In this document: positions 613-31,612 of the stretch, one piece after another
Layout of the letters: every line of letters starts with the position of its first letter
Numbering within the stretch: the stretch's first letter is position 1
Source of the DNA: a virus
Virus record (IMG/VR): IMGVR_UViG_3300030101_003413
Location: 1 to 33,714 of that record
Length of the DNA stretch: 33,714 nucleotides
Direction: 5' to 3' (one strand)
Made by a program: the position numbers and the translations under genes
Notes under the pieces: generated by a model
Told to the model about the DNA's origin: nothing
The model's database searches: none
Seen by the model: only the letters and a program-made list of their open reading frames with translations

Positions 613-621
613 TTTTCCTTT

Positions 622-665: not shown

Positions 666-692
666 ACCACACTGCTTTGAAAGGAGGCAGCC

Positions 693-1834: not shown

Positions 1835-1837
1835 CGC

Positions 1838-2113
1838 CTACATATTCCTGATCCAGTCACCCACCTTGTTGCCGTCAACATCAAACTCTGGAAGGCTGCT
1901 TTTCTGCTTGGGTTCGGCACTAACAGCGTCCTTGCTGTTGTTGTTTTCACACTCACTGCAATCCTTTGCAACAGTGCCTGCCCAGTCTTCCATAATCTTG
2001 TCAAACATATCCGGCCCCTTCAGTCCCGCGTCATTTGCGGCCTGCTGAAACCTGGCGTAGGTGTCCTTGCGGACTCGAATCGAAACGGTAAGTGTCTTCT
2101 TGACAGCCATCAT
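1838..2113 (-). CDS. Ribbon-helix-helix-type small DNA-binding protein
   Basis: A 91-residue protein. Residues 5-14 form an alternating basic/hydrophobic strand (K-K-T-L-T-V-S-I-R-V), followed by two helices (about 16-26 and 31-44), the pattern of MetJ/Arc repressors that act as dimers inserting a beta ribbon in the DNA major groove. The C-terminal half is polar and ends in a short D-G-N-K-V-G-D-W segment. Two start codons are tandem (ATGATG, 2113 and 2110): the first overlaps the giant gene's stop as ATGA, the second as TGATG, and an AAGGG lies just upstream. As last gene of the structural run it may be a late-made regulator, or a DNA-binding protein carried in the virion beside the giant protein. 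Function is inferred from fold pattern only. Confidence 0.6.
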   Translation of the reverse strand: MMAVKKTLTVSIRVRKDTYARFQQAANDAGLKGPDMFDKIMEDWAGTVAKDCSECENNNSKDAVSAEPKQKSSLPEFDVDGNKVGDWIRNM

Positions 2114-5100
2114 TTGCCCTTTTGTTGATCTTTGGCTTTTATTTCTTCAAGAAACGCCTTGATTATGGCGTCTTGTACGTTTTCTGGTGCATTAAGAATC
2201 AAGTTTCTTTCTACTTCGTCTGGGAAGCGGCCAAACTGATCCGCAAGCCATTGACCACTTCTTTGCTTAAGCACACGCTTAACTTTATCCGCAATGTTAC
2301 TCGGGGTAACCATGCCTTCAGCGCCAAGGAGTTTGTTTACTTTATCAAGATCATTTTGCATATCGACGAGAGCCTGGCGTTTTTCGTCACGAGTCAGATC
2401 ATTGTTGGTTATGGTTTTAATGACTTGCGTTGACAAATCGGTAATGGTGTAATTTCTGATTTCGGAAACCGTTTTCAAGAACTCGCTTGCACGCCAGTTT
2501 TCCATGTCATCTACAGAACTAAAGAATCCCAAAGCCTCGGCAATCAATTTGGTTCTGTCTTTAATGGCAACAATCTTGCCAGACTTTGTGCGTTTGACGC
2601 CCTCTTCGCCATTCAGCAAATCATTGAATGCATACGCTGACCTAAGCATTGGGAACTGGGACAGCCCCTTTCTAAGTCCACCTTCAAGACCAGGATCATC
2701 GGCGGCTTCCAGTGCTTCTGATATTGATCCAACTGTAGCGCCCTGGATTATCTTGTAAAGCGTTTCTGCCGGAGTGTTTCCACCATGCAAACCAACGGCT
2801 GCTTGGCTGGATGTTTGGTACTCACCGTTGTAAATAGCGGAAAAAATACCGTATCGAGCCATGTCCATCATTACGTCATCAAAGTCTCGTTTGCCCCCAA
2901 AAAACCTGTTTCGGTTTTCTTCTTGTGACGTGTAAGAAACCTGCTCATCTTCCAGTTTTTTCCGCAGTTTTTCTTGGTTTGCTGTCTCGATTGCCTTCCT
3001 GTCATCATCGTCGGCATCGCCGCCAATAAGATTTGACATCATCCAGCCAAAGACCCAGGCGGGAGCAGACCATACGATCTTAGGCAGACCCTGTAGGCCG
3101 ATTCCGGCTGCAACAGCGGCTCCACCAGCCGTTTGACCAACAAGCCTTGCGCCTCGGCCAACAAGAGATTTTGGCTGAGTTGCCGTGCTTCCAACAAAAG
3201 TTGCCACGCCCGCAGCGGCAGTAGATTCAGGTATCCACGAGAAAGATCCGTGAAGCAAGGTTTGTGCCGCCATCATTCGCACTGCACCCTTTTTGTTGCC
3301 GTCTCGGACAAACGAATACAAGAGGCCGGTGTAGTTAAGGCCAAACCTCTTAAACATCAGCATGCCCTTAACCGCAGTTGACCTCCACAGCATTTGCAAA
3401 GACGCACGGTTCGGCTTGAATTGAGTCCTGGAAGTGCGTATCAAAGCCCATTCTGCTGCATCCTGTTCGTTATAGCCAAATTGGTCTACAGCAAGTTTCA
3501 TGTAAAGCAAGAACGCAATTCTTTGGTTTCGACGCTCACTGACACCAAGAACCTTCTGCAAGCCACGGCCAATCCTCGACATTGTCGGCGTAGTGTCAGT
3601 GCCATCCTTAAATTTGCCCATTGCATCGACGTAGCCGTATTGTTTAAGCCACCGCTTGCCCTGTTTTCTCAACGCAATTCCTTGATTTCGCAACACGAAC
3701 AACAAAGGGAGTCTAGTAAACGCACCTATGTCAGCGTATGTCGTAATAAACGGTTGCGTTAGATTAATTAACTGGAATGAAGCCTTTCCAAGCATAACAA
3801 ATGCTGTTGCAGACATTGCAAGCCTGGTAACCAACTGAGTAACGCCCAAAGAAACATGCCGACCAACAAACGGAAATTTACGCAAGGTCAAATCAATCAA
3901 ATCGCCAATTTCGTGTTTGCCTACCGTTACCCATCGTCCAGTCCAAAGATAATTAAGCAAATTTTCAAGTTGTTCGGCAGCAAGAGGTTTGCCATTAGGT
4001 CTTCTTAATGATTGGATGGCAGGTTGAACTTGTTCGTTCAACTGGGTAAGCGCCTTCCACCTTTCAAACCCTTCCACGTTCATTGCCCAAACCTTGGAGA
4101 AATCAACCAGGTAATTTTCTGCGCCTTTTCTGTACAACGTAGACGCCCAAAATTTTTCGCGGTTGGCTTTGCGTCCCACTACTCCGCGCAAACCTTCCAT
4201 AACAGTGCCGCCATCGGTTTCAATTGCTTCTTTCAATCCACCGACTAGGTTCCAATACGCACCTTCATCGAGACGCATAACGTCGTTTGACGGAATTGAA
4301 TCTTCGGTCTTGTATTCAAACGTTACGTTGTATTTTTTAAGATCAATTACGCCCTCTGGTTTGTAAGTTTCTGCAACCTCTCCTATGTTGTCTTGAAAAG
4401 CATTTGCCATCTTGGCGGCTTCAACATCAGTTTTTGCTTTGCCAAGAAACACCGTGTCGGATTCTCCGGTTTCTTTGTCGGTGTAACGTGCAGAAACAAT
4501 GTAATCGCCCACCCAGATGTGAGGCATGTGGCCCCATTGGTAGCCCCAGGCGTCGTTGAATTCGGTTGGGTCAATTGGGTAAACCTCGTTAACCACAAAC
4601 TCAATGAATTCATTTTTAAAGAACTGCTTCCATTCTCCGCCAATCTTGACGTGGAACATCAATCGCGTTTTGCCAGTCAAACCAATTACTGGCTCTAGTT
4701 TAGCTTCGATGTTTTCAAAGCCGAGTGATTCAAACTCCGCAAACAAACCACTGTAAGTTTTAGATGACAAATATTTTCGCAATTTGCCTTGCTTGTGGCG
4801 AACGTAATATTGACGCATTTTTTCTGTGCGTCTCTTGAAGTAAATCAATACCTTTTTAGTTTGCGGCTTGGCTTTTTTAAGTTCTTCAACAACTTCCTTG
4901 AGTTCTTCCGATGACTCTTCGTTAATCTCAATGGTGTTTGGATCTTTGATGTTGTCAGGGCTAATTACCTCGTTCATCAAGTGGAAGAACAATCGGCCAT
5001 TATTCTTGTTCCAAACAGATCGCCAACCCAACTTTTTGCGCATCTTACGATCTTGTTCTAGTTTTTGAGCCGTGTCGCCTTCTCTGCGAATTTCTGCAAG

Positions 5101-8100
5101 TTCCATTGCGCGATGAATTCTGCCTTCTGTTGTAGTTGGGTTCCCTTGTTCGTCTACTTCACTTTGAAAATGCAGCCACTGCTCAAAAAACAGTTGTCCA
5201 AGAACATTGGGCGATTTGTCACGCGACTCAATTTTAGTTACGCCTTTCTTTGGCTTAGGATTTAGGCGACTAAAAATGCTAAATGGATTTATGACAAGCC
5301 CGCGACGGTTTGATGCCTTCTGCCTTCTAAACTCACGCGCCGCTCTGTCTTTTCTTGCCTGTTGAACCTTCTTTATGTGGTCCTTGCGGTTGACTGAGGG
5401 GTCTTCGTCCGCAACATATTCCCAGGCCAAGTCGAGAACCTTGCTGGCGACCTTGGGATTGCTGGCGGTCAACTGGTATTTCTTGCCGAGCAGGTAATCC
5501 ACAACCTTTCTCAGCGTCTTCGTATCAAATTCAGCAAAGAACCCCTTGTTCTTTCCCTTGCCCTCGGTCAAATCAACCAGGTCCATGAACTCACGGTCGG
5601 TAGTGAACTCATCAGAATCTCTTCTGGCGGTGCTTGAAATATTAAGCATGAACATCCCAGAGTCCGCTGACTTGCTGGGAGATTTGTAGATTGTAAAACC
5701 GCTTGATTTAATGCCCTCGTTAGAAGCAAGTTCCTTGTCAGTGATGTACTCAAGCACTTGCTCGGTAGTTTCGAACGGCATGCTGGTTGCGGCGCCACTC
5801 AAGTCCGTTGAAGGCGGCAACATAATAACGCGATTGTTTGAAACCTGGTCATTGTCAACAGACGTTGCAAATCGCACGTCTCTTGCTCCAAGTACGCCAA
5901 CCGCTCGGACCAGGTTGCCAGTAGCGAGCCATCGCAACTCACGAGACGTTTCGTTAATGTTTGCAATGCTTTCGGTCACTTCGTCCATTGACGTGGCAAT
6001 GTCGCTGGTAAGCCAAATCTTAGACGGATCGCTCGGAGAATCCTGGATTTCACCAGTGCGTTCGTCTACTGCAATTTTGCCAACAGACGGGCCTTCAATG
6101 TTAAACAGATTAAATTGAATTTGGCCTTCCAGTGTGTACCCAGTAATAGTCACGTTTGACTGTTTGAAAACGTCTGGATTGGTTGGGTCAGTGGTTTTAA
6201 ACCTGACAGACTCAATCAAAATTGGCTCGTTGGTTAACAGTTCGCCTGGGTTTTCCGTATACGGAACCATCCCGTAAAGGCGATTTATCAATCCGGCGTT
6301 AACGTAATTCTGAAATTCCGTGATTCGAGATATCGTATTTTCGCCGCTTCTTTCTAGACCTAAAAGTCTCGCGTAATCAACATTGGCCTGTTTTTCTTCT
6401 TCTGTCAAAGACGGAACTTCTTCCTCTTTGTCTTGTGCCGCCTTAACTTTATCTTTTCGTTTATTTATGACATCAAGAGCCTTGGCCTTGTCTTTGCCAA
6501 TTTCTCCTGAACGTTTTTCCCACGCGGATTTAATTGCGCTTATTTGAGCAAACACTTCGCTGTCTGCTTCTTTTAGGCCGTCACCAAGTTTAATGTCTGA
6601 TTCATCTGGATTAATGCCAGCGTTTTCAAACATGCCGTCACGCATTTCTCCATACGTTGCCAGGGTTTTCAGCGCGTTGGCTTCTACTTCTTGAATCGTG
6701 AATTGAGTTGTGCCTGAGCCAACAACCATTTTTCTCGTAGTTCGATACTCCAATGGCGAGAATTTGGCTTTCAACGGATTCATGCCCCTAGAATCCATTT
6801 GATTTAACAACTCTACAAACCGAATTCCCCATTCAGTAATAATTTTGCCTTGCTCTGCTTTGGGAAGAAGCACAAGACGGCCAGACACCTTGTCAAACAA
6901 ATCTCCCGCAGTAGCAACGGCTTCAAGAGTTGGTGCTTTTTCAGGAACGGGAAGGCCCATCTGAGACATAAGCCCCGTGTTTTCTTGCGCCCAGTTGTAA
7001 ACAACAATATCGCCAACAATAGTGCTGAGGTCTGGAACCTCCATTTCCATTGTTCCGCCAGCCTCTGCGGCCACGTTAGCATTCAGGGAAGACAGTTTTT
7101 GCGACACCCTGGCAGCCATGCGGGTTTCTACCGGCAAGTCGGTCTGCAAATATGTAAAGATTGGCTTGTTTACCTGCCCAAACCTGTGCGGGCGACCAAG
7201 TGCTTGAACAAGCAAATCAACCTTGTCTCCTGGGTCAAAGATAAACAACCGCCGTCTTCGGAGGTCGGTTCCTTCCTTTGGCGAAGCGTGCATGCTGACG
7301 CCAGTAGACATGCTTTGGTTGTATATAAGAACGTCTACATCGCCATTGTTGAACCTGGTCTTGTTGTTGACTTTGTTCTTTTCTTTAGACGTTCGCCTTC
7401 TCAAAATCCATTTTCCGTTTTCCCAGTTGAGATAATCGTCTCGCCCAGTTCCCTCGGCAACGGTGTATCCCTTTTTCTCCAACTCGGTTCTAATAACGTC
7501 AAGGGGAGAACCAACGGTGCTGGTAAGAAATTGGTTTTCTTCAATTGACCTAATCAAATTCATGTATTGGTCGTAGACGCCAAATTCTCTAAGTTCTTCG
7601 TCGGTTGCTTCTACAACCTGTTTTACTTTGTTTCCGTTTGCGTCTCTACCGCTGATGCTAACTGTTCGCAGTTTTCTTGCATAAACAGCAACTACGTCAG
7701 CAAGCGTGTAATTGACCGTATCTCCAATGCCAATGTTGTTTAATTCTGCAAACGCTTTCAGCCCAGCCTCGCCAGTTCTGTCAACGTAAATCATTGGCTT
7801 TTCGCCAACCATTTCAACTGGCTTGCCGCCAGCCTCTTCTGTTGCTTCGTATTTGGTTTTAAGTGATGCAATTACTTCATCAATGCCGTATTCTGCTTTC
7901 ATAGAAAGAAGAACCGTCCTGGTCAAATTAGCCAGGTCTTCAACAAACGCAGGGGCGTGAGTGTTGAATGTCCCAGGTTCAATTCGTACATCGTCAATAA
8001 CTATGTTTTGCTGATCGAATGAGACGTTTGGGTTGTACCCAGAAGATGCCCTAGCAACATGCATCATCATGTGTCTGCGGTCTTCGCTGTCGGCAAGGTT

Positions 8101-11100
8101 GATAGCCGACCTAAGCACCTCCAACATTTCGTCGTTGGCTTCGTCTCCTACCGGAATAGTGTCAGTGCCAAAATCAACGCCTTCAAAACTCTTTTCGCGT
8201 CGAACGTAAAGGCCGCGTTCTACAAGTTCTGAAGACAACGCCTGCATAAGAGGAACGCCGCCACGGTTCAACGCTTTTACCAACGCTGCCGGGTTGAGGT
8301 CCATCATTCCGGCTGGCTGATAAAGGTCAAGAACGTCGCCTCTCTTGCCAAAGGTGGCTGACAGGTAGAGAATGTTTCCAGGCGGAATAGATTGCCACAA
8401 ACTACGAAGCAGCAAAGAAACAGGAGGAAGCGCATTTACGTTGTCAAGAAGTTTCATAGCGTAAGCGTCTGCCACGCCAGCGCCGCCTGCGGCTTCATGC
8501 ACTTCGTCAAGGGCAAGATAAACCTTGCCTGATTCAACCAGTTTTCTAAAAATCCTTTGTCTGGTAGCGTAATTCTTGGAATTGCCGGGTCGCAACTGAG
8601 AATATGTCCAAGCAATACCAAACGGGCTGATAGCCTTGCCGTCTTTTTCGGAACTGTAGTCTGTGACTACCATTTCTCCGGTTTCAATAAAATTGTCTAC
8701 GGCCTCTTCAAGTGCTTCCAGTTTGGATGAAACATTTTCGGCGCCTTTGACAATCTTGGGCCAACTCCTGCTCAATGTTCCGTCTTTGACTGCGTCAGAT
8801 ATATCAAACCTGGTTGCACGTTTAGTTTCTGTGTTTGCTTTTCCTTGATCAGTAACAGAAAGCAATTCTCTGCTTTCAAGATCGGTCGCATTTTCTGTAA
8901 CAGCCACAATGTCTCGGAGCATGTCGCCCCAAAGGTCTGGGCTTTTTGTTACAAACAACGGAAGCAATCCGCGTCTCTTGGCTGCAAGCATTGCCGCTGC
9001 TGCGGTTCTTCCCTTGCCAAGCCCAGTGTCATCTCCAATAATAAAAGCATCGCCGCGTTCGTTGGCCCTATTGAGAAGTGCTACACCGTCAATTTGAGCG
9101 CCGTGCAGAGCATTGGCAGTTTGCCCCTCAGTAAGACCGAGAGACTCAGCAACATTGGCAAGCACAGATTTTCCGGTTTCAGATTCAAGTTCTAGCAGGG
9201 TTTGAGTAATCACCGTGGAGTGATTCTGCGGAACCACTGTCATTGGGTCGTTTACCCTGGCATCTTTGGCTGATACCGGGGTGTACGGCACGCTTGATTC
9301 GCCTTCAACAAATTTCGTTTCAGCGGCTTCCAGTTCCTGCTCAATCTTGACCTGTTTTGCTGCGGTAGCGGTTCCTCTTGCAGTAGTTCCAAGAGATTTG
9401 CCAAAAGCGTTGTGGATTCTGTCAAATCCAATATCGAGTGCTTCGCCAAGATCAGCATCTGGATCAGTGATTATTTCAATCGCACCAGGAACATGCTGCC
9501 TCAACCATTTGATAAGACCACGGAAAGATTTGATGCCAAGATCGATGACTTGTCTAATCAACGCAACGGCTTCTTTAAGGTCTTCTTTGCTAGGAACAGC
9601 AGCAAAACCTCGATTGTTTCTTCGTTGCTTAAATTTATCTGCGAATTTCTTAGCGGCTGCTATTGCTTCAGCGGTTTTTTGTTCGTCGGATTTCTTTACG
9701 CCAGGCTGTTCAGGTTGAACAGGCTCTGCACCCACGACTCCACTGTCATCGACTCTAGTTCCTTCTGTTGCTGCTTCGTCACCACTGGGAGGCTTTTGAT
9801 CGGGGCGTTTGGTTTGTCTAGTGTCGCCCATGCCTGTTCTGCGATCACCTCTACCTGGCCCAGTTTCCACACTATCTGGCCCTCGTTCAGTTTGTCTAGG
9901 TCCGGCTGTTGGTTTGTCCAATCCAACACCAGTTTCTTCAGATTCTCCAGTGGCATCGGGTTTGTCTCTTGCATCGATTGCAGTTTCAGACTCAAGTAGT
10001 CCGCGTATTCCCACCCGCTCAGATGATCGATAGAATCCGGCACTATCACTGCTCCCAAAGGTATTTCTGTCGAGTTGTCCAAGGGTTTCCCGAGCAACCT
10101 CATTTGCCGTTTCGATCTTTCTTGTTTCATCTGTGTCCTTAATCGGCTCTATGCCGGATTCTTCACTGTCAATCGCGTTGTTTCTTTGCCTGGCAATTCC
10201 ATCAATTACCTGCTGCTTCAGTTCTTCTACCGTTGTAACCATTGGCGGCAGGTTTTCTTCTCCTTTTCCAAACATGCCTTGGTTTGGCAACCAAGAATTT
10301 GGAACGTTATTTACTTCGGTATCTCGCGGCATAGCCGAAAAGACAATTACGTCTACCGGGAATTGCGTTCCCATTTGCCTGTACAACTCGCCAGCAACCG
10401 TAAAGTGCGCATGCACGATGTGGTTTCTGTACAGTTGGGCTAAAACGACACTTCGATTGCCAACGCTGTACGCTCGCAGTCGATCGTCTTGCGTAAGTTT
10501 CGGCCCACCCCTTGCGCCGACAATAAAAACCTTTGTTTTCCAATAGGTTTTTGTAAAAGCCTGTGCTAACGCCAGATCGGCCTTGTCATAAACCTTTATG
10601 TTGGTTTTGCGGAAATCATAATCCGAATATTCAAATTCTTTTCCAAACACCGAGACATTTTGGCCCTTTGGAATATTTCCAAAAGGAGGATTTGAAATAA
10701 CAAGGTTTGGTTCAGCGCCGCTGTCGCCGCCTCCATTATCGTTATCTGCATTAAGAATTTGATATTCAGGAGAACCTCTATAATCAACCTCTTTGGGGTC
10801 TTTTGTTGGATTCAAAGAATCATATTGAAGAACAACGTTGGCAGCGGGAATGCCAATTCTGCTTAGTTCAACTCGCAAGATATCAATGTCGGCGCCATAT
10901 ATCCTAGATTTGTGTCCTCTCGTTTCTTCGGTTGCATTAGCCACATCATCGGGGTTGCTTGCTTCTATTTGCGAAGCAAACAACGAAGTAAGCATTCCGG
11001 TTCCTGACTGTGGCTCAAGAACCGTAGGATGCACGTTGACATATTTAACGCCATCAGGGTGTCCTCTATGTACCACAAAGTTTTCGTTGCCTGGAGAAAA

Positions 11101-14100
11101 TCCTGCCATGCCAAGAAGTTGTGCTGCAACAGCCAGGACCGGCGGAGTTGAAAACTGCTGATCGCCTCGCTTGCCAGCAACATCGCCTGCCTGAATTGTT
11201 TTAGGCATTTGGCCTTGCAGTGTTTCAGCAATTTCAAAAACGTGTTCAAACAGGTCAGCGTCGTTGTAACCCTGTTGCCTCATTTGATAAACACGCCAGG
11301 CAAGAGAATCTCTAACGGCTTTCTCAAACAAAACCGTAATTACGTTTCTGGTTTTAATAGGATAACTTTTTGGATCTGTAGGCACTGAAAGGCCAGACTC
11401 TTCCATCAAATCCGCGTAAGCATTATAGATGTTAGCCGTTGTTGCGAACTCTGTGCCTTCGTTGAGAAGTGTAAAGAACCGCTTGTATACCGCATACCTG
11501 TTGGTTTGCTCTCCTGCACTTGCTTCGGTTCCGTTGTAAGGCCCAATTGGAGCAACTGCCAACCCTGCTCTGTTGGCAAACGTGGCTCGGTGTGCAGTAA
11601 GCGCATTCTCAATTTGCTCTTTAATGCGTACTTGTATTTCAAATGGCATCTGCAATTGTTCAGCGCGCAAACGGTCTGTATCAACGCTATGAATTACTCC
11701 AGATATTGGATGTTCTGTGTAGCCCATATCAGTGACAATGGATATGACATAACTACGTCCTTCGGCTTCTCCCTCGTAGTCTTCGGGCTGAGTTGTGCTT
11801 ATCTGCGCCAAACGAACACGGGCGCGTATTGAGTTGCCTTCAGAATCTTGCCATTTTTCTGTACCAAAAGGATTGTCTTCAGTGGACCCGCCTTGCTGTG
11901 GGTGCAAAACTTGTGTGCTGCTTATATTTTGTTCAGTTTGCTCAGAATCTGTTAGTGAAACTGCTTTTCTCAAAGCCTGGTCGCCAAGCAAATTGGTTGC
12001 TCGTGCTTCTTCAAAAGATTCAGGAACATCCGGTTCGGCTTCGTCTTCGACTTCCGGTTCCGGCTCGGCTTCGGCTTCTGCGGCTTCGCGGCGCAATCGA
12101 TTCAGTTCGTCTACGACTTGCTGGGGGGAAAGCCCTTCAACAACAATCATGTCGGTTGCCGTTACTTGTTCTTCTTCGGTGAGTTGATTGAAATCAATCT
12201 GGCCGTCTTTATCAAGGGCAAGTTCGCCAGTTGGCGTGTCTTCGATGTCTTCGACCGGCTCCGCTACCGGCTCCGCTACTGGCTCTGTTACCGGCTGCGC
12301 ACCAGGATCTTCAACCGGCTGCTCTTCTACCTCTTGCTCTTCCTCGGTTTCCACCCCTGGTTCTGCCGGGGCTTCCTCAGTTGGCTCGGCAGTTGGGGCT
12401 TCGGTAACTGGCTCGGCAGTTGGAGCCTCTGTTGTTGGATCAGTAGGCGCTTCTGTAATGGGCGCTTTTGGTGCTGGCGCTTCTGGTGCTGGCGCTTCTG
12501 GTGCTGGCGCTTCGACCTCATCAATCGAAGTGATTGCAGCAATCTTGCGACCGCCCCTAGTCAATTCGGTGCTTTCAACAAATCTTTCGTTGCCGTCTTT
12601 GTCTACAACAACTACGCCCCAACTGTCATCATTAGGGCGGTTGCTATACACCTTGCCAACTACAGGCTCTTCATCGCCCCTAACGCCAGGAACAAAGTCA
12701 ATTTGCACCTCTTGGCCGCTTGATTTTTCTACGGCCTCAGCCAGGGCTTTTTCTTCCATCGGCACTGCTTCAGCAGCAGGATCGGCAGCGGGTGCTTCGC
12801 CAACAGGGGCTTCTGGCGTGGGAGTTGTTTCATCTGCGGGGGCAGTTTCTGTGCCATCCCATTCCTGAATCTTGGCGTCAACTTCGTCGTTAATTGCCTT
12901 AAGGCGAGAGTAGTCTTTGTTTGTGTGTGCTTCTTTTGCTTCAATAAACTTCCCTTGCAGCCATTTGCGTTCGTCTTCGTTTCTGTCTCTCGTTTTATCA
13001 TCGTGAGTTTTCATGACAACATCACGCCATGTTTGCTCAAACTCGGATTCCTTGGGATCTGATGCTGGATCTGTGCCGCCAAAGATTGATTCGTATTCTG
13101 CGACAACCGCGTCTCTGAATGCGTTCCGTTCTTCCTGGGTTGTTTTCTTAAAACCGAAGATTGCTTCTACGTCTTTTCGAGAAACATTTCCAGTTGTGGT
13201 TCTCAATTGATCGCGCACAGCCTTGGTCGCTGGATCAGAACTACCAACAAAATCTCTAACCTTGTCTTTGTCAGTCAGGTCTTCTTTGCTGTTAAAGAAG
13301 TTTTTGCCTTCGGGGGCCGGAGCGGGATCAGGAGTTCCGTCAGACGTGTCTGTATCGTCCCCGTATCCAAACCTGTTGCGAATTGGAGTAGTAACGGCTG
13401 CATCAAAAGCCTGACCAACCGATGAAGCGCCGCCGCCAAGAGCAAAGCCGGTAACGGCACTGACATATGCTTCAGTGCTAGTAAGCGATTTAAGAATTTG
13501 CGTAAGCGATGTTTCGCCGTCTATGACGCCATTCATATAAAGATTGACGTGTTCAGCAATAGATTCTGATACATATTGGAAATATTCTGTGCCGCCCTCA
13601 GCCATCGCTGCGGTAAGTATTGCAAACAACCTTTTTCGAACACTTGCTCCGCTTGTACCCTTGGGAAACATTGCGCTGCGAACCTGGTCAAAACCAAGAG
13701 ATTCGAGCAAGCCAGCCGCTGCCCCATAAGCCAAAGACGTATTGAAAGCACTTGACCTTGCTTCTTCTTCAGTAAAGCCAGCCCTAATTAGTTCGTCGTA
13801 ATATGCGGAGTAAAAAAGACCGGCCTCTGCACCGCCAGTAAATGCGGTAGTTGGCGCAATTCTAGAAAAGAATTGGACTGCTTTCTTAGAACCAAACTTG
13901 CCGAGAAGAGTGGCGCCTTTTACTGTAACGGACCCTGCTGGACCAGTTGGACCCATTGCAATCAAAGAACCCGCGCCGTCTGCTACGGTTCTAAGCATGT
14001 TGACGCGACCGGCAAACGTACTCATGTTAAAGTTTTCGGGATCAATAATGCCTGCCGGTCCTGGCATAAGCATGTTTGATTTTTCTGCCCACTCTAGATC

Positions 14101-15222
14101 GCGGTCCCAATCGCGTGCTTCGGCAAAATAATCATCCAAAATACGATCTTGTTCCATATCAACAAGATTTTTGACTTGTTCGTATTTTTCGTTGCTAAGT
14201 GCAAACCAAGCGCCAAGTTTCAGCGGTTCGTATTTAAGTGAATCGGCAACGCCAGCAAGACGAATGCCGGTTGCAGCTGCCCCGTAATACATCTTGCCTG
14301 CACCTAAAACAACGCCACCGGGTACGTTTGCGTTTTGCTCGTGCATTTCAAGGTACTTGCGGTGCAATGCAATAAACGCAAGCCGCTGTGGGCCTTCAGG
14401 AATAGTGTATGCATTCCTGGGATTTGCAATGTAAGAAGCAAGCGGCAACGACCAGGTTGCCATTACGTCTTGGTCTTCAATAGCGAGACGAAGATTGCGC
14501 GGCATTCCAGAACGAATGTCCAAAGATGTTGCACGGATGTGATTTATCAAACTATCAGAAGAAGAAACGCCAGGCAATTCTCCATCATCCCAACCCCATT
14601 GAGTTGCTTGTGCAGCAGTAAATTCTTTTGCGGCTTTTTCGGCTTCATCCGGGTAATTCTTACTTAGCCAAGCAAAATTGTTTTTTTCTTCCTGGCTTAA
14701 AGATTCCCACGATTTATTCCAAATCGCGTTCGCAATTTCTCTGTTTGACGGGTCGTTGATGTCCCTAGACACAACAGGCTTATTTGTAAAACCTTGATTA
14801 GTGTATTCCCAATGCAATGGGTTAAATTGATCGGCCTTACCAACCTTGCCCATGTCTACTTTGCCATTGGACAAAACAGCATTAAGATCATTGGTCGAAA
14901 CGTCCCAATGATAAACACCTAAAGTGCTTTGGAAAAGCGTATCTGAAGCGCCCATTCCGGTAGGAGCCTTGGTTTCGGGTTCCATACCAGGCAATTGACT
15001 AATGAATTCTCCGGACCTGGCAAACCGAAGGCTGCGTTCTTCTGCAAATGCAGCCCTTGCGCGGTCGCGTTTTGCTTGCTGAACTTCCTCTCTTGTCATT
15101 ATTTCAACGTCAGGAAATGCCATTCCTTCACCAGAAGGCATGTCTTTAAGTGTTCCGCTTTCTTCTTGGTTTGGAAACAGTTCGGCCAGGTCTTGTTCTT
15201 TAGTTCGCGGTGGGGTTGCCAT
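2110..15222 (-). CDS. Giant polyvalent protein: adenine methyltransferase + strawberry-notch helicase + PLxRFG/LPD38-type region
   Basis: An uninterrupted 4370-residue ORF, 4 nt after the preceding stop. In order: an unrecognised N-terminal region (1-400); an Ala/Gly-rich amphipathic segment (about 410-605); a long acidic Pro/Glu linker with repeats (about 620-1080); a Rossmann-type N6-adenine methyltransferase (about 1350-1635) with motif I E-P-Q-S-G-T-G (1403-1409) and catalytic N-P-P-F (1511-1514); a second low-complexity linker; a superfamily 2 helicase of the strawberry-notch type with Walker A G-D-D-T-G-L-G-K-G-R (2063-2072), D-E-V-H (2239-2242), an L-S-A-T motif and motif VI Q-A-L-G-R-P-H-R-F-G-Q (2673-2683); and a C-terminal region with a PLxRFG-like element (3567-3576), N-L-T-Q-P (3820-3824), an LPD38-like helical stretch (about 3890-3965) and hydrophobic segments (about 4000-4065). 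Known relatives (P1 DarB, polyvalent proteins) are packaged, ejected with DNA and protect it from restriction. The ejection role here is inference. Confidence 0.85.
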   Translation of the reverse strand: MATPPRTKEQDLAELFPNQEESGTLKDMPSGEGMAFPDVEIMTREEVQQAKRDRARAAFAEERSLRFARSGEFISQLPGMEPETKAPTGMGASDTLFQSTLGVYHWDVSTNDLNAVLSNGKVDMGKVGKADQFNPLHWEYTNQGFTNKPVVSRDINDPSNREIANAIWNKSWESLSQEEKNNFAWLSKNYPDEAEKAAKEFTAAQATQWGWDDGELPGVSSSDSLINHIRATSLDIRSGMPRNLRLAIEDQDVMATWSLPLASYIANPRNAYTIPEGPQRLAFIALHRKYLEMHEQNANVPGGVVLGAGKMYYGAAATGIRLAGVADSLKYEPLKLGAWFALSNEKYEQVKNLVDMEQDRILDDYFAEARDWDRDLEWAEKSNMLMPGPAGIIDPENFNMSTFAGRVNMLRTVADGAGSLIAMGPTGPAGSVTVKGATLLGKFGSKKAVQFFSRIAPTTAFTGGAEAGLFYSAYYDELIRAGFTEEEARSSAFNTSLAYGAAAGLLESLGFDQVRSAMFPKGTSGASVRKRLFAILTAAMAEGGTEYFQYVSESIAEHVNLYMNGVIDGETSLTQILKSLTSTEAYVSAVTGFALGGGASSVGQAFDAAVTTPIRNRFGYGDDTDTSDGTPDPAPAPEGKNFFNSKEDLTDKDKVRDFVGSSDPATKAVRDQLRTTTGNVSRKDVEAIFGFKKTTQEERNAFRDAVVAEYESIFGGTDPASDPKESEFEQTWRDVVMKTHDDKTRDRNEDERKWLQGKFIEAKEAHTNKDYSRLKAINDEVDAKIQEWDGTETAPADETTPTPEAPVGEAPAADPAAEAVPMEEKALAEAVEKSSGQEVQIDFVPGVRGDEEPVVGKVYSNRPNDDSWGVVVVDKDGNERFVESTELTRGGRKIAAITSIDEVEAPAPEAPAPEAPAPKAPITEAPTDPTTEAPTAEPVTEAPTAEPTEEAPAEPGVETEEEQEVEEQPVEDPGAQPVTEPVAEPVAEPVEDIEDTPTGELALDKDGQIDFNQLTEEEQVTATDMIVVEGLSPQQVVDELNRLRREAAEAEAEPEPEVEDEAEPDVPESFEEARATNLLGDQALRKAVSLTDSEQTEQNISSTQVLHPQQGGSTEDNPFGTEKWQDSEGNSIRARVRLAQISTTQPEDYEGEAEGRSYVISIVTDMGYTEHPISGVIHSVDTDRLRAEQLQMPFEIQVRIKEQIENALTAHRATFANRAGLAVAPIGPYNGTEASAGEQTNRYAVYKRFFTLLNEGTEFATTANIYNAYADLMEESGLSVPTDPKSYPIKTRNVITVLFEKAVRDSLAWRVYQMRQQGYNDADLFEHVFEIAETLQGQMPKTIQAGDVAGKRGDQQFSTPPVLAVAAQLLGMAGFSPGNENFVVHRGHPDGVKYVNVHPTVLEPQSGTGMLTSLFASQIEASNPDDVANATEETRGHKSRIYGADIDILRVELSRIGIPAANVVLQYDSLNPTKDPKEVDYRGSPEYQILNADNDNGGGDSGAEPNLVISNPPFGNIPKGQNVSVFGKEFEYSDYDFRKTNIKVYDKADLALAQAFTKTYWKTKVFIVGARGGPKLTQDDRLRAYSVGNRSVVLAQLYRNHIVHAHFTVAGELYRQMGTQFPVDVIVFSAMPRDTEVNNVPNSWLPNQGMFGKGEENLPPMVTTVEELKQQVIDGIARQRNNAIDSEESGIEPIKDTDETRKIETANEVARETLGQLDRNTFGSSDSAGFYRSSERVGIRGLLESETAIDARDKPDATGESEETGVGLDKPTAGPRQTERGPDSVETGPGRGDRRTGMGDTRQTKRPDQKPPSGDEAATEGTRVDDSGVVGAEPVQPEQPGVKKSDEQKTAEAIAAAKKFADKFKQRRNNRGFAAVPSKEDLKEAVALIRQVIDLGIKSFRGLIKWLRQHVPGAIEIITDPDADLGEALDIGFDRIHNAFGKSLGTTARGTATAAKQVKIEQELEAAETKFVEGESSVPYTPVSAKDARVNDPMTVVPQNHSTVITQTLLELESETGKSVLANVAESLGLTEGQTANALHGAQIDGVALLNRANERGDAFIIGDDTGLGKGRTAAAAMLAAKRRGLLPLFVTKSPDLWGDMLRDIVAVTENATDLESRELLSVTDQGKANTETKRATRFDISDAVKDGTLSRSWPKIVKGAENVSSKLEALEEAVDNFIETGEMVVTDYSSEKDGKAISPFGIAWTYSQLRPGNSKNYATRQRIFRKLVESGKVYLALDEVHEAAGGAGVADAYAMKLLDNVNALPPVSLLLRSLWQSIPPGNILYLSATFGKRGDVLDLYQPAGMMDLNPAALVKALNRGGVPLMQALSSELVERGLYVRREKSFEGVDFGTDTIPVGDEANDEMLEVLRSAINLADSEDRRHMMMHVARASSGYNPNVSFDQQNIVIDDVRIEPGTFNTHAPAFVEDLANLTRTVLLSMKAEYGIDEVIASLKTKYEATEEAGGKPVEMVGEKPMIYVDRTGEAGLKAFAELNNIGIGDTVNYTLADVVAVYARKLRTVSISGRDANGNKVKQVVEATDEELREFGVYDQYMNLIRSIEENQFLTSTVGSPLDVIRTELEKKGYTVAEGTGRDDYLNWENGKWILRRRTSKEKNKVNNKTRFNNGDVDVLIYNQSMSTGVSMHASPKEGTDLRRRRLFIFDPGDKVDLLVQALGRPHRFGQVNKPIFTYLQTDLPVETRMAARVSQKLSSLNANVAAEAGGTMEMEVPDLSTIVGDIVVYNWAQENTGLMSQMGLPVPEKAPTLEAVATAGDLFDKVSGRLVLLPKAEQGKIITEWGIRFVELLNQMDSRGMNPLKAKFSPLEYRTTRKMVVGSGTTQFTIQEVEANALKTLATYGEMRDGMFENAGINPDESDIKLGDGLKEADSEVFAQISAIKSAWEKRSGEIGKDKAKALDVINKRKDKVKAAQDKEEEVPSLTEEEKQANVDYARLLGLERSGENTISRITEFQNYVNAGLINRLYGMVPYTENPGELLTNEPILIESVRFKTTDPTNPDVFKQSNVTITGYTLEGQIQFNLFNIEGPSVGKIAVDERTGEIQDSPSDPSKIWLTSDIATSMDEVTESIANINETSRELRWLATGNLVRAVGVLGARDVRFATSVDNDQVSNNRVIMLPPSTDLSGAATSMPFETTEQVLEYITDKELASNEGIKSSGFTIYKSPSKSADSGMFMLNISSTARRDSDEFTTDREFMDLVDLTEGKGKNKGFFAEFDTKTLRKVVDYLLGKKYQLTASNPKVASKVLDLAWEYVADEDPSVNRKDHIKKVQQARKDRAAREFRRQKASNRRGLVINPFSIFSRLNPKPKKGVTKIESRDKSPNVLGQLFFEQWLHFQSEVDEQGNPTTTEGRIHRAMELAEIRREGDTAQKLEQDRKMRKKLGWRSVWNKNNGRLFFHLMNEVISPDNIKDPNTIEINEESSEELKEVVEELKKAKPQTKKVLIYFKRRTEKMRQYYVRHKQGKLRKYLSSKTYSGLFAEFESLGFENIEAKLEPVIGLTGKTRLMFHVKIGGEWKQFFKNEFIEFVVNEVYPIDPTEFNDAWGYQWGHMPHIWVGDYIVSARYTDKETGESDTVFLGKAKTDVEAAKMANAFQDNIGEVAETYKPEGVIDLKKYNVTFEYKTEDSIPSNDVMRLDEGAYWNLVGGLKEAIETDGGTVMEGLRGVVGRKANREKFWASTLYRKGAENYLVDFSKVWAMNVEGFERWKALTQLNEQVQPAIQSLRRPNGKPLAAEQLENLLNYLWTGRWVTVGKHEIGDLIDLTLRKFPFVGRHVSLGVTQLVTRLAMSATAFVMLGKASFQLINLTQPFITTYADIGAFTRLPLLFVLRNQGIALRKQGKRWLKQYGYVDAMGKFKDGTDTTPTMSRIGRGLQKVLGVSERRNQRIAFLLYMKLAVDQFGYNEQDAAEWALIRTSRTQFKPNRASLQMLWRSTAVKGMLMFKRFGLNYTGLLYSFVRDGNKKGAVRMMAAQTLLHGSFSWIPESTAAAGVATFVGSTATQPKSLVGRGARLVGQTAGGAAVAAGIGLQGLPKIVWSAPAWVFGWMMSNLIGGDADDDDRKAIETANQEKLRKKLEDEQVSYTSQEENRNRFFGGKRDFDDVMMDMARYGIFSAIYNGEYQTSSQAAVGLHGGNTPAETLYKIIQGATVGSISEALEAADDPGLEGGLRKGLSQFPMLRSAYAFNDLLNGEEGVKRTKSGKIVAIKDRTKLIAEALGFFSSVDDMENWRASEFLKTVSEIRNYTITDLSTQVIKTITNNDLTRDEKRQALVDMQNDLDKVNKLLGAEGMVTPSNIADKVKRVLKQRSGQWLADQFGRFPDEVERNLILNAPENVQDAIIKAFLEEIKAKDQQKGK
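12240..12515. repeat. In-frame Pro/Glu/Ala minisatellite within the giant gene
   Basis: Short tandem repeats inside the coding region of the giant. The clearest is three consecutive copies of a 15-nt unit (ggtgctggcgcttct, 12470-12514, last copy with one change), encoding A-P-E-A-P units on the minus strand. Further imperfect units of 12-15 nt around 12250-12300 encode T/A-E-P-V repeats and around 12370-12430 encode T-E-A-P-T-A-E-P repeats. All unit lengths are multiples of three, so copy-number change keeps the reading frame. The product is an extended acidic linker between the N-terminal region and the methyltransferase. Confidence 0.85.
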
Positions 15223-15226
15223 TTTG

Positions 15227-17875
15227 TCAATCTCCCAGGTACTTCAAATTGCCTGTGGTTGCCCACATATTTTCTTCAACATCTTCTGCGTCATTGTAAA
15301 ATGACAAACGCCAAGGACCATGTTTGTCACCAATGATACTTACCAAAAGTTTTTGCGCGGCTTTTTGCCAGGCTTTTGCTTCAGGTATGGCATAGCCTTC
15401 ATTGTAAGAGTACCGAGCAGACCTATGCTTTGGCCTGGCTTCCTCAAACTTTTTAAACGCGGCAAGCGCATCTTTATAGACTTTAGTTTGAGCAAATCTT
15501 TGTGCTGCATTATTGGTTGTATTTGGATCAAAGAACGCGCCATCTTCACTTTCTGCCCTCATGTCAATCAAAGTAAGTCCAACCGGCGCAACAGAACCGT
15601 CTACCCCTGTGTGGGATATAAGTTCGTACCCCATTTTTGAAAGATTGCTAATCATTTTACTGTCAATTTCTGGCAAATTAGGTTCGTATTGCTCGCTCGC
15701 AAGAGCAGCGAGTCCAACAGCAGCCGATCCGTATTCAGATTTCAAATTTTTAAATACCGTATTGCTATTTCTGATTTCTTCGGGCGTATATTCGTATTCT
15801 TGCGGATTTTGTGTGTCAACGTCAGTTTTATCAACGGTTCCAAAAGGGTTTAGCACTGGGTTATCAGAAGCATTTTGTTCAGTAGTTTGCGGTTCGTCTA
15901 TTTTAGTGCCAGAAAACAAACGGCCTTCTTCTGGTTGAGATTGACGAATATCTGGTTTGTCTACGGACTGAAACTCAGCAGCCTGCCTGTTCCATTTCCA
16001 GGTGCTTCCGGAAACGTGCAATGTGTTGTTAGCTATGTAAGGCAAGCCTTCAGGCAAATTAGCAATCTCGTCATCTTTGACAACAGCTGCGTGTATTTCA
16101 ACCATGCCTGACGTGCCATCGTTTTTAGCAACTTTAATTTTACGGGTACGTCCTGTCCAATCTTCAAATTGCGAACCCGTGTGTTCATTGCCTCCCATGC
16201 CAGCCACAGGAGTTCCCAATTTAAATTTGCCTACAGGTACTTCTGCAACTTCTGGGTTGTCAACAATTTCTGAAACGTCAACGCTTTGGCCTTCTGCGGT
16301 TGTAATTTGGTCTTTCTTAATGTTCTCAGCAGCAATGCTTTCTGCATTTTTTTCTCTTTGCATTTGCCGATACTGTTCTTGAATTTCTTCTGGCGTAACA
16401 GGCGGCGTTTCGGCTGGTTTATCGTTTTGATCGAGCCAACCCAGCATTTGACCCATGTCGTTTACACTTGGTGTTAAACCCATCTCCTTTGCTTTGGCTC
16501 TTTCTGCACGCCGCCTTGCCTCTGTAATATCCCTGTCAAACTCTTTTTGTGCGCCCTCTAATTCATCAAACCTGCCTTCTGCCAAGCCCGCTTCGTTTTC
16601 ACGCATTTGCATAACAACGTCGCGCATCATTCTGGTTCGGGCGTCTCTTACTGCTTGAATTGCAGCATTGCGTTCCGGGCCAGGAGCAAACTCAGAAAAG
16701 TCAGTGTTGTTGAGTTCGTTCCATTTTTTTTGCGTATCAGAATCCCAAAAACCCATTCCCATAGCAATGCTTTTAATATTGTTTGCAAGCCTGCCTGCTC
16801 CACCGCCAATTCCAGTTGTTTCTGCATCAAACTGCAAAATAGAACCAAATTGCGATTCAGAAAACATCAATGGGTCAGGAATATGCGTTCCGCTAAAAGC
16901 ATCTTTTTCTTGGTCAAATAGCGTGAAATAACCTGGCGGAGTTTGGTCTGTTGTAATTCCTTTTCTGTCAGGAGTCATTGAAGGCGAACCGACACTTAAG
17001 CCGCTTCTTTGCCCTGTAAAAGGATCAAATGATGGACTGCCAGCGCCGCCAGAATACATTGATGTAGGGCCGGATTTTTGCAGCCGCTTTTTTTTGGCTT
17101 CTTCTGCCCTCTTTTTAATACCCCTTCTACCTTGTTTTGCCAATCTATCTAACACACGTTCTCGGTGTCGGGCCTCTTCATTATTAATTTTGACATCGCC
17201 AATTTGATTGCCGTATCTCGTTCCTTTGCCTGATGACTGATTGCGTATTTCGTCAATTTCTGTTTTTACTTTGCTTCTTTCTCCAAGCAATGCTTCTTTG
17301 TTGCCTGGTACTGCTAAAAACTCCATTGCTTGTTGTTTTTCGGATTCACTTCCCCATTCAACATCACCACCTAAAGCAGCCATAATCAAATTAGATTTGT
17401 GCATTTTTTGCGAAGGAGACAATCCCGCAAAAGTTTCTGATACTTCTTCTTGCCGCCGTTTGCCAAAATTGGGAAACTTTTGTCTTGCCTTAATAAATGC
17501 TTCACGCGCTGCCGGATTTTTAATTTGCCAACCAGGAATGTCGCCTCTTGCGGCGGCGTCAAATTCTGCTTGCGCAGATGGAGACAGTTGAGGATTTACA
17601 AGCCCCAATTCTCTATCGAGTTCTTTTCGTCGTACAGCAGCGCCTAAATCTGCCTGCGCATCATAAGGATTAACTGCTGCGGGTTCCGCAGTTGCTACGG
17701 CTGTGTTTGCCTGTTGCGCAACAGGCTGATGCGCAACAGGCTTAACATTTTTAGGATCAAATTGCGGTTCTTCCCAATAATTAAAAGAACCTTCTTTTGG
17801 CGGATCTTCTGTTATCTCGGTAAACTTGTTATTGTCGCCAAGCAAAAATGTTCGTTTTTTGTTCTTTTTAGCCAT
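15227..17875 (-). CDS. Large unrecognised protein upstream of the giant, likely internal virion protein
   Basis: An 882-residue hydrophilic protein with no family I can name. It opens with a basic M-A-K-K-N-K-K-R start and has an Ala/Gln-rich stretch near residues 45-70. A very basic Arg/Lys helix lies near 245-270, a Gly/Ser/Pro-rich stretch near 270-320, charged coiled-coil-like helices around 440-490 and 520-560, and a C-terminal helical domain from about 720. There is no signal peptide or clear membrane segment. Its size, low complexity and place between a fibre-like protein and the giant, 4 nt before the latter's start, match internal or ejected virion proteins of podoviruses. A partner or chaperone for packaging the giant is plausible but unproven. 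Confidence 0.5.
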   Translation of the reverse strand: MAKKNKKRTFLLGDNNKFTEITEDPPKEGSFNYWEEPQFDPKNVKPVAHQPVAQQANTAVATAEPAAVNPYDAQADLGAAVRRKELDRELGLVNPQLSPSAQAEFDAAARGDIPGWQIKNPAAREAFIKARQKFPNFGKRRQEEVSETFAGLSPSQKMHKSNLIMAALGGDVEWGSESEKQQAMEFLAVPGNKEALLGERSKVKTEIDEIRNQSSGKGTRYGNQIGDVKINNEEARHRERVLDRLAKQGRRGIKKRAEEAKKKRLQKSGPTSMYSGGAGSPSFDPFTGQRSGLSVGSPSMTPDRKGITTDQTPPGYFTLFDQEKDAFSGTHIPDPLMFSESQFGSILQFDAETTGIGGGAGRLANNIKSIAMGMGFWDSDTQKKWNELNNTDFSEFAPGPERNAAIQAVRDARTRMMRDVVMQMRENEAGLAEGRFDELEGAQKEFDRDITEARRRAERAKAKEMGLTPSVNDMGQMLGWLDQNDKPAETPPVTPEEIQEQYRQMQREKNAESIAAENIKKDQITTAEGQSVDVSEIVDNPEVAEVPVGKFKLGTPVAGMGGNEHTGSQFEDWTGRTRKIKVAKNDGTSGMVEIHAAVVKDDEIANLPEGLPYIANNTLHVSGSTWKWNRQAAEFQSVDKPDIRQSQPEEGRLFSGTKIDEPQTTEQNASDNPVLNPFGTVDKTDVDTQNPQEYEYTPEEIRNSNTVFKNLKSEYGSAAVGLAALASEQYEPNLPEIDSKMISNLSKMGYELISHTGVDGSVAPVGLTLIDMRAESEDGAFFDPNTTNNAAQRFAQTKVYKDALAAFKKFEEARPKHRSARYSYNEGYAIPEAKAWQKAAQKLLVSIIGDKHGPWRLSFYNDAEDVEENMWATTGNLKYLGD

Positions 17876-17887
17876 CGTGTTGCCCTA

Positions 17888-19324
17888 TTAAGCAATAACT
17901 GAATCGGCAACAGTGGCTGTGCCGGTAGTTCCTGGGAAGTAAATGCTTTGCGTGTACAGATCAAAGAACCTGTCTAGTTCCCTGAACCATTTGCCCGCAT
18001 AGTTGTTAGAAAACGCAGCAGTGTGACTGTCTTCGATTACAGAATCGGTGTTTCCTGCAAGAATTCCAAATGCAGCAGACCCTGCATATGGCTGGTAAAG
18101 AGGAATCAAGCACACCCCGTCAATGTAAACAATGTGAGTATTGCTCAAAGCAGTAGTAAACTCAATACTCATACGCAAACTAGTAGTGGGGTTAGTTGAA
18201 GTTCTAAACACAAGCGACTTAGTCGCAAACGAAGTGGTCAATTCAGAACCAGAAGTGCAGTCTACGCTAATCGCGGCTGTACCAGAATTAGCGGTTGCCA
18301 AAACAGACCCGCTAGTTTCGTTTTCAATTTGAAACTTGAGAACACCGGCGGTGGGCTGAGAAGCACCACGAGCAACCCTAGCTACCATCAAATACGTCGT
18401 GTCTGGCCTAAGAATGCCAGCTGTACCGCTGGTGCTGTTGTTAAGTTTTTGAGCCAAATTGGTGAGAGTCGATCCGTTGCCGGTAACCTTTAAAGCAGAA
18501 CCGCCGTCGTAATACGTTCCGGCTGATGTTGTTTGAGTTGTTTGTGTACCCGCAACACCAACTTTTAATTCCCAGTTGTCTGGAACATGAGATGTGAAAG
18601 ATTCCATGTCACTGTTTGTCAGAATGTTTTGACCTGGAGAACCGCCCGCGTCTGTTGTTGCTGTGCCAGCCACAATGTTAAGAGCCAATCCGCTTTTTGC
18701 GGGCCATTCGTACCAATCGTTCTCTACAGCATTTCCGCCACGAATAGACCAAACTTCGTTTCCGGCCTGAGCGCCTTGAGCAGAGTCCTGAACACATCGA
18801 GCAGTCAATGTTTCAGTTCGAATGTACGGGTTGTCATCTGACAGCGTGGCTCCGCCAACCTGAGACGGAATCGTAGAAACAAACATCGTGGAGTTGCCTA
18901 CATTATCGGCTGGGGTCAACGGGCCAGTTGTAGTAATTGCGTCGGCTTCCAGGGTGCTGCTGCTTGCAACCATCTGGCGGCTTAGTTCTTCTAAAGCCGG
19001 GTAAATCGATTTGTCCGCCAAAGACACGTCAGCATTAACCATCTCTACGACAGTATTTTTGGCAGCAGTTTCCAATTCCTTTTGAATTGATGCCACAAAG
19101 CCAAGGATCTCATCTCTTTTTTTGACTAGGTTGCCAATAATCTCAAGGTCTTGATCCGTACTGCCGGACACTGATGCAGACACCCGATAGAGCGCGTAGA
19201 TGTTGTCCAGGTCGGTTGCCAGGTTTGTAGCAGCAGTCCTGATTCTTTCGTGGGCATAAAGAATCTTGCCTAACCGACTAAAAACACCGTATTTAGAAGA
19301 ATCTGTCAGAAGTTGAACAGTCAT
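17888..19324 (-). CDS. Virion protein with carbohydrate-binding jelly-roll domain (fibre or appendage candidate)
   Basis: A 478-residue protein starting at ATG 19324 with GGAGG 5 nt upstream. The first about 125 residues are helical (R-L-G-K-I-L-Y-A-H-E-R-I-like) and probably dock to the particle. Residues about 230-390 read as a CBM4/9-type jelly roll: an N-I-L-T-N-S-D-M-E opening, a W-E-L turn, a Y-D-G-G-S-A-L-K-V segment and a Y-L-M-V-A-R-V-A-R strand with a later V-Y-I-D-G-V strand, the usual order in this superfamily. The C-terminus has a short helix rich in aromatic residues. It is therefore a likely glycan-binding appendage (tail or head fibre). Binding specificity cannot be read from sequence, and a purely structural jelly roll is an alternative. 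Confidence 0.55.
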   Translation of the reverse strand: MTVQLLTDSSKYGVFSRLGKILYAHERIRTAATNLATDLDNIYALYRVSASVSGSTDQDLEIIGNLVKKRDEILGFVASIQKELETAAKNTVVEMVNADVSLADKSIYPALEELSRQMVASSSTLEADAITTTGPLTPADNVGNSTMFVSTIPSQVGGATLSDDNPYIRTETLTARCVQDSAQGAQAGNEVWSIRGGNAVENDWYEWPAKSGLALNIVAGTATTDAGGSPGQNILTNSDMESFTSHVPDNWELKVGVAGTQTTQTTSAGTYYDGGSALKVTGNGSTLTNLAQKLNNSTSGTAGILRPDTTYLMVARVARGASQPTAGVLKFQIENETSGSVLATANSGTAAISVDCTSGSELTTSFATKSLVFRTSTNPTTSLRMSIEFTTALSNTHIVYIDGVCLIPLYQPYAGSAAFGILAGNTDSVIEDSHTAAFSNNYAGKWFRELDRFFDLYTQSIYFPGTTGTATVADSVIA

Positions 19325-30559: not shown

Positions 30560-31612
30560 TCAACCGTCGCCGGGATCGGCAGTGGCAAGCAAGAAGTTAC
30601 GACGCCGGTCGTAACACATGAGGTTCATAGTAGTGTCCACATGCGTTTGGAAAACCGTGTGCTGGTTTGACGCAGCAGTCGGGCCTTCTTCTCGCATGTA
30701 TTCGCCAGAAAGGAATGCTGGCTTCATTACGCTCCAGTTGATTCCGTAAATCGGATCGCCGGAACGGCTTTCCAACTGCGGAACCCAAGTAACCGGAACC
30801 TGGCGGAACAGCAGGCGACCATCCTTGGATGCGATGTCGTTGCCAAGGTTGTCGTTCTGGGCTTCCAGAACTTCTTCCAGGGGTCCAATCACATCGTAGT
30901 TGGTGTAGTAACCGTACTGCTGGCCGGAACTGTAGGGGCTACCAGGCACTGGGGGCTTAAAATTGGTAAACGTAGCCGCACGTCGCCACTTGCGAATCAG
31001 GTCGGTGCTAGTCACGTTGGTGTACTGGGCAGTGTAGTTTTTCCACTGGTCAAAGTCGGCTGCGGACGAGTCGATGCCGCCAGCGCCACTTGCAAAACCA
31101 GAGGGGTTTCCACCGTTGAAACCTTCGGTGGCGTTGTACACAATCCAGTACGGAACACCAAAGCACTGCTTGTTGTCAGACGAACCACTGGGCTTTGCCC
31201 AGAATCGCTGTTCCATGTGCTTGGCAAGGTCGATCATTGCGTCGTTACGGCGAATCCGCACGAGTTCAACAATCTGTGCTGCCCCGGTGTTCATTGCAAT
31301 CTCACGTCGCTCGATTGCATAGTTAGTGGTCATGTGACGCCACGGAATGCTTGCCGTAGTCATCACGTCTGCCACGTTCACGTTATCAGTTTCGTACAGA
31401 CCAACGTCCTTGGCGGCGCCACTGGTCTTGTACATCACGTTCCACTGAATCGACTGACCGCTTTGGAACGACACCTTCTTCTTCTGGAGAATCATGGGCA
31501 GAGCCACATACTCCTGAAGATCATAAGCAATGTCGGTCCATCGCAACTTGCCCAGGTCGGCCTGAGTAGTTGTAATCAGGTCAGCGATATCGGCTGCTTG
31601 AAGAGTTGCCAT
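30560..31612 (-). CDS. Major capsid protein
   Basis: A 350-residue protein after the scaffold gene. Characteristic elements are the N-terminal D-L-I-T-T-T-Q-A-D-L-G-K-L-R-W-T-D helix, the S-G-Q-S-I-Q-W-N-V-M strand, P-W-R-H-M-T-T-N-Y-A-I-E-R-R-E-I around residues 90-110, and a M-I-D-L-A-K-H-M-E-Q-R-F-W spine-helix-like segment. I recognise this set in a family of phage major capsid proteins from environmental podovirus-like genomes. Position between scaffold and decoration genes supports the call. HK97 fold is expected from family knowledge. Confidence 0.8.
   Translation of the reverse strand: MATLQAADIADLITTTQADLGKLRWTDIAYDLQEYVALPMILQKKKVSFQSGQSIQWNVMYKTSGAAKDVGLYETDNVNVADVMTTASIPWRHMTTNYAIERREIAMNTGAAQIVELVRIRRNDAMIDLAKHMEQRFWAKPSGSSDNKQCFGVPYWIVYNATEGFNGGNPSGFASGAGGIDSSAADFDQWKNYTAQYTNVTSTDLIRKWRRAATFTNFKPPVPGSPYSSGQQYGYYTNYDVIGPLEEVLEAQNDNLGNDIASKDGRLLFRQVPVTWVPQLESRSGDPIYGINWSVMKPAFLSGEYMREEGPTAASNQHTVFQTHVDTTMNLMCYDRRRNFLLATADPGDG

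Follow-up and report, generated by a model that had tools for sequence, protein, structure and literature searches.

What is the function of a single gene that takes up 38.9% of a viral contig? The DNA analyzed here (the window) is a 33,714-base (33.7-kb) IMG/VR virus record, IMGVR_UViG_3300030101_003413. It contains one giant open reading frame, denoted P0001, that runs from 15222 to 2110 on the minus strand (4,370 codons, 4370 aa). At the base composition of the window, the chance of an open frame of this length is ~1e-90. A preliminary description had reported one ORF of 4370 residues at 2110-15222, comprising 39% of the window. This ORF is real, though the description had missed that it lies on the minus strand. 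The plus-strand reading of the same interval was rejected, as it is full of stops. Contigs that carry a related capsid gene are as long as 39.6-47.0 kb, and the partial gene at the right end of the window (32912-33712) extends to the edge of the contig; the window is therefore probably a fragment of a larger genome, of which P0001 perhaps makes up ~28-33%. This right-end gene, which is without a PHROG match, is kept in 47 lineage loci (50-64% identity in the best ones) and sits where the portal gene is expected, ahead of scaffold-like and capsid genes.

P0001 is the last gene of the late operon, behind the capsid and tail genes. The major head protein gene (30560..31612, minus strand; phrog_9953, 3e-9) served as the lineage marker. 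Immediately upstream of P0001, in the same operon, is an 882-aa gene (15227..17875, minus strand) without a family match; its place is equivalent to that of 917-1353 aa ORFs in lineage mates, and from this position its product is probably virion-associated. A 478-aa gene further upstream (17888..19324, minus strand) is a syntenic marker, and its homologues in lineage mates (28-33%) lie two genes ahead of the giant in L233, L234, L240, and L241, with a further one in L239. The 91-aa gene directly after the giant (1838..2113, minus strand) is a conserved neighbour, kept behind the giant in L244, L011, L237, L239, and L233.

Two independent contigs are collinear with P0001: L010 over residues 1320-3990 (36% identity) and L011 over residues 1289-4324 (25% identity). 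A chimeric assembly was therefore rejected for residues 1289-4324. The closest relative, L244 (giant gene 3-8357, 91-aa gene 8875-9150), shows 36% identity overall and 53% in the helicase. Its giant stops ~300 residues short of the P0001 C-terminus and is separated from the 91-aa gene by ~500 bases, so that either its C-terminus is shorter or a frameshift has occurred. L215 (IMGVR_UViG_3300030104_000081), which holds a capsid fragment with 96% identity to that of the window, comes from the same metagenome as L010, the closest giant relative; L215 and L010 perhaps represent one phage population.

The middle of P0001 contains two enzyme families. The first is an N6-adenine DNA methyltransferase with preceding helices (residues 1222-1706; 10105..11559, minus strand), matched with E 5e-32 by a profile built from relatives with the window protein left out. 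The motif I and N-P-P-F named in the preliminary description were recovered as LEPQSGTGML (residues 1402-1411; 10990..11019, minus strand) and, as motif IV, NPPFG (residues 1511-1515; 10678..10692, minus strand). Both motif I and NPPF are invariant or nearly so in relatives, with NPP invariant in 46 sequences, and the N-terminal TP motif, QFSTPP (residues 1356-1361), is conserved. Structure prediction, which the description had proposed as a check, returned an adenine-methylase fold: the model (mean pLDDT 67) was nearest to BsaXI (Z 12.5, rmsd 4.3, 257 residues), followed by M.BseCI (Z 11.6), type I HsdM subunits, among them that of EcoKI (Z 10.5), and M.TaqI (Z 9.5). The model thus suggests an EcoKI/TaqI-type enzyme with a fold closest to type I and IIB adenine methylases. 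We looked for LPD36 N-terminal to the methyltransferase; the Pfam scan gave no match to it, and a helical domain was predicted at residues 1234-1338.

The second enzyme is a superfamily 2 (SF2) helicase of the Strawberry-notch (SNO) type (residues 1963-2838; 6709..9336, minus strand). The only matches in the Pfam scan of P0001 were AAA_34 (6e-15, 55.4 bits against a cut-off of 27) and Helicase_C_4 (SNO; 4e-21, 76.6 bits against a cut-off of 30.5), and the SNO profile of relatives covered residues 1963-2838 with E 2e-138. The key superfamily 2 motifs claimed at the outset are all present, comprising the Walker A motif GDDTGLGKGR (residues 2063-2072; 9007..9036, minus strand), DEVH (2239), SATF (2288), and QALGRPHR (2673), and they are conserved in relatives. 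Judged by its sequence, the helicase is a complete member of the SNO family with intact motifs. A PDB sequence search with the methyltransferase-helicase region gave no notable match. In the post-helicase region (residues 2840-3240; 5503..6705, minus strand), a TGNL motif is kept (residues 3101-3104), with GN invariant in 26 relatives and the rest divergent. Of 66 relatives, 60 have a zincin-type HExxH motif after the helicase; this motif is absent from P0001 and L011.

The C-terminal region (residues 3337-4053; 3064..5214, minus strand) appears to be a divergent carrier region of the PLxRFG/LPD38 class that is kept in lineage mates. Blastp of this region to lineage mates gave a best E of 5e-38, and a lineage-mate profile that included P0001 matched the PLxRFG-bearing giants of L062 (8e-20), L057 (3e-17), and L050 (4e-15). 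In P0001 itself, NCBIfam tail-700 (PLxRFG) fell below its cut-off (4e-5, 22 bits against 100), Pfam LPD38 gave no match, and the literal PLxRFG was absent. The PLxRFG-like and N-L-T-Q elements described earlier were thus confirmed in part: NLTQ is present (residues 3820-3823; 3754..3765, minus strand), conserved as NxxQ, while PLxRFG is represented by a degenerate equivalent, HMPHIWVGDY (residues 3565-3574; 4501..4530, minus strand), which aligns with HxxHxFFGxY of lineage mates. Homology to PLxRFG-bearing members therefore places the region in the PLxRFG/LPD38 class, in degenerate form. The corresponding profile of the methyltransferase-SNO relatives matched the giants of BcepIL02 and BcepMigl with E ~1e-96, and a profile of P0001, L010, and L011 matched the pooled Bcep, BS-TP4, and relatives' sequences over 228 columns (hhalign prob 90, E 1.7e-6, as a single pairwise comparison rather than a database search). 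Neither tblastn of the region against named phages (no match) nor a PDB sequence search (no notable match) extended this result, and the structure model, made from 3 sequences (pLDDT 39), was unusable for a fold search.

Towards the N-terminus, a Gly/Ala-rich helical region (residues 421-608; 13399..13962, minus strand) gave weak matches, all of them pairwise, to the N-termini of methyltransferase-SNO relatives (prob 60, E 8.5e-5), lineage mates (E 0.0024), and Bcep giants (E 0.015). This region is possibly a shared N-terminal carrier domain. It is followed by a low-complexity linker rich in Glu, Pro, Ala, and Thr (residues 790-1090; 11953..12855, minus strand). The hydrophobic segments and membrane-active ends attributed to the protein were not borne out, as no transmembrane helix was predicted in P0001. 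Its most hydrophobic 19-mer reaches 1.40 on the Kyte-Doolittle scale, against 1.7-2.0 in the Bcep and BS-TP4 giants, and membrane-active ends were rejected on this basis.

One phage-contig ORF thus holds a methyltransferase, a SNO helicase, and a PLxRFG/LPD38-class region, as claimed, in a late-gene context, and an EcoKI/TaqI-type adenine methyltransferase with an N-terminal TP motif precedes an SF2 helicase. P0001 is therefore a polyvalent protein with the "methylase-helicase dyad" known from the literature, for which translocation along incoming DNA and its methylation have been proposed (PMC5512222). In P1 DarB (2255 aa), the order of methyltransferase and helicase and the proposed role are alike; the 30 N-terminal residues of DarB direct its packaging, and the protein inhibits restriction by EcoK and EcoB (PMC9024508). 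P0001 is ~1.94 times longer, in line with the description of a protein about twice the size of DarB. This size is not unusual, as Bcep22-like giants span 4,515-4,667 residues and 53 of 55 complete relatives 3.5-5.6 kaa. The profile searches proposed in the preliminary description were fruitful for all three regions of P0001 and failed for P1 DarB, which gave no blastp match to P0001 at 0.01, no methyltransferase or SNO profile match at E 10, and no match to the C-terminal profile. We therefore keep the statement that P0001 may work like DarB and drop the statement that it is a DarB.

The "DarB-like antirestriction" giants of Bcep22-like podophages, BcepIL02 gp70 (4667 aa), BcepMigl gp69 (4658 aa), and JC1 gp69 (4515 aa), share with P0001 their size, a place at the end of the virion module, the PLxRFG/LPD38 C-terminal class, and a methylase and a helicase annotated in one protein. 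However, the homology covers the C-terminal part and not the whole length, the BcepIL02 and BcepMigl giants were missed by the methyltransferase and SNO profiles, and the CSP3 giant differs in having a helicase annotated as HepA type and a reported lytic transglycosylase. JC1 gp69 was detected by mass spectrometry in CsCl-purified virions (PMC9144972). Packaging of P0001 in the virion, which the preliminary description had inferred, is suggested by its homology to this class, and since the enzyme profiles miss P1 DarB and the Bcep giants, an antirestriction role would follow by analogy.

Among named phages, the methyltransferase-helicase part was matched only by gp3 of Bacteroides phage BS-TP4 (XPO95421.1, 5391 aa, annotated hypothetical) and by an Acinetobacter phage. 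Like P0001, BS-TP4 gp3 is a single giant gene with a methyltransferase followed by a SNO helicase (helicase region 26-27% identical) and a C-terminal region of the PLxRFG/LPD38 class; the gene adjoins the portal gene. Unlike P0001, it is longer, has additional domains at its N-terminus along with a zincin-like HExxH, and lacks close similarity to P0001 outside the methyltransferase-SNO part. A Strawberry-notch ATPase in a polyvalent protein has been described before, as in Methylomonas WP_020485828.1, though this class was called "a few instances" (Iyer et al. 2017, PMC5512222), whereas our alignment-based search, for which a single-sequence peptide pattern was insufficient, found SNO relatives encoded by 334 viral-contig stretches. 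Among the best 80 of these, 55 ORFs were complete, with a median of 3950 aa and 53 of at least 3500 aa. The scanned relatives add InPase, LPD1, LPD5, ddrB-ParB, PBECR1, SLT, ART, and Acb1-like domains, which correspond to the published polyvalent repertoire. One of them, a 5630-aa protein in L034 (IMGVR_UViG_3300045107_000159, 1418-18307), carries an SLT transglycosylase at its N-terminus and, directly ahead of the methyltransferase, a 2H phosphoesterase with the motifs HVTILYG and HATIAYV (2_5_RNA_ligase2, 9e-8; Acb1 anti-CBASS, 3.6e-5, below cut-off), a possible anti-CBASS enzyme inside a polyvalent protein. On the 167-kb Thalassospira lucentensis plasmid NZ_CP136683.1 (18659-37123; L006), a single 18.5-kb gene encodes both methyltransferase and SNO; its product may be a polyvalent protein of a phage-plasmid or of a conjugative element.

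A search with the capsid protein recovered 43 viral contigs, seven of which have a capsid identity of 65-77% (G031, G034, G035, G036, G037, G039, and G041). In these seven contigs, the C-terminal region of the giant sits in an ORF of 2.2-3.3 kaa; in those that extend over the 478-aa homologue, the ORF lies downstream of it. The methyltransferase and SNO profiles gave no match in these seven records (five of 41-47 kb, two fragments of 14-24 kb). The preliminary description had missed that the same lineage has giants without methyltransferase or helicase. The pair is present in the window and in L010 and L011, which are tied to the lineage by their 91-aa and replication-initiation neighbours; G045 (capsid 52%) has a divergent methyltransferase-SNO form with another C-terminus. 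The sister giants mostly contain HExxH motifs in middles otherwise without an assigned family. In L233, L234, L237, and L239, a zincin-like HExxH middle is accompanied by long stretches without a Pfam or PDB match. Pfam returned nothing beyond a weak metallopeptidase match for the sister payloads, and PDB sequence searches with two of them gave no notable match.

As lineage mates without methyltransferase or SNO keep the C-terminal region, the carrier is separable from the payload. We give an even chance to the reading that, within this capsid-defined lineage, the giant is an ejected delivery chassis that holds its C-terminal part constant, and perhaps its N-terminal part too, and swaps the enzymes of its middle at a single locus, with methyltransferase-SNO antirestriction as the payload in the window, L010, and L011, and zincin-like and unassigned payloads in the sisters. 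It is also possible that the sisters lost the pair from a methyltransferase-SNO ancestor.

We consider it probable that P0001 is a DarB-like polyvalent virion protein, packaged and ejected with the DNA, that methylates and tracks along it against restriction. The C-terminal region, and perhaps the helical N-terminal region, would place the protein in the particle and let it exit with the DNA. The payload would be the N6-adenine methyltransferase fused to the Strawberry-notch DNA translocase. Once ejected, the latter would travel on the incoming genome while the methyltransferase marks adenines, and these marks would stop host restriction enzymes, above all type I-like ones, from cutting before phage genes are expressed. 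This reading is supported by the dyad order and N-terminal TP motif, as published (PMC5512222), by the intact motifs of both enzymes and the methyltransferase fold, by a position at the end of the late operon like that of BcepIL02 gp70 and BcepMigl gp69, by the C-terminal class common to these giants, and by the lineage mates that retain this region without the enzymes. Against it speak the absence from P0001 of the zincin-type HExxH of most relatives, the failure of the enzyme profiles to match P1 DarB or the Bcep giants, and the fact that none of the further Dar genes (darA, ddrB, hdf, ulx) was identified.

The position and size of P0001 also resemble those of ejected giant proteins, such as the N4-like virion RNA polymerase, a protein of ~3,500 residues that is described as ejected, and SNO is an SF2 translocase family. 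P0001 could accordingly be a DNA-entry machine in which the translocase mainly pulls the genome in and methylation is secondary. We regard this as unlikely, because same-capsid sisters lack SNO in the available sequence, so that it is seemingly not needed for entry in the lineage, and because SNO is coupled to the methyltransferase motif ([NDS]PP[FYW] ahead of the helicase) in all 76 relatives among the best 80 with more than 450 aa of upstream sequence. Bacterial contigs, too, carry methyltransferase-SNO genes, of 1.3-2.2 kaa, and defence systems use methylase-helicase pairs, as would fit a late-made, unpackaged protein acting in the infected cell, for instance against superinfecting phages. 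There is little probability of this, as the C-terminal class is common to P0001 and a virion protein, lineage mates retain that region with other payloads, and PADLOC yielded only a weak match to a DinG-like helicase (E 0.006), on which a defence-system reading was rejected. Polyvalent proteins often bear host-directed effectors (PMC5512222), yet it is very unlikely that the methyltransferase or helicase targets host DNA or transcription after injection, since the modelled methyltransferase fold is that of restriction-modification methylases and the best-studied member of the dyad shields phage DNA in cis.

The dyad and giant DarB-like virion proteins were already known, mostly from P1, Burkholderia, or Ralstonia phages. 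The results reveal that the SNO version is common in uncultured phages (334 stretches, the best 80 mostly of 3.5-5.6 kaa). Capsid relatives of the same lineage with or without methyltransferase-SNO on the same carrier form natural pairs, which could show the role of the payload against host restriction and the parts needed for packaging.
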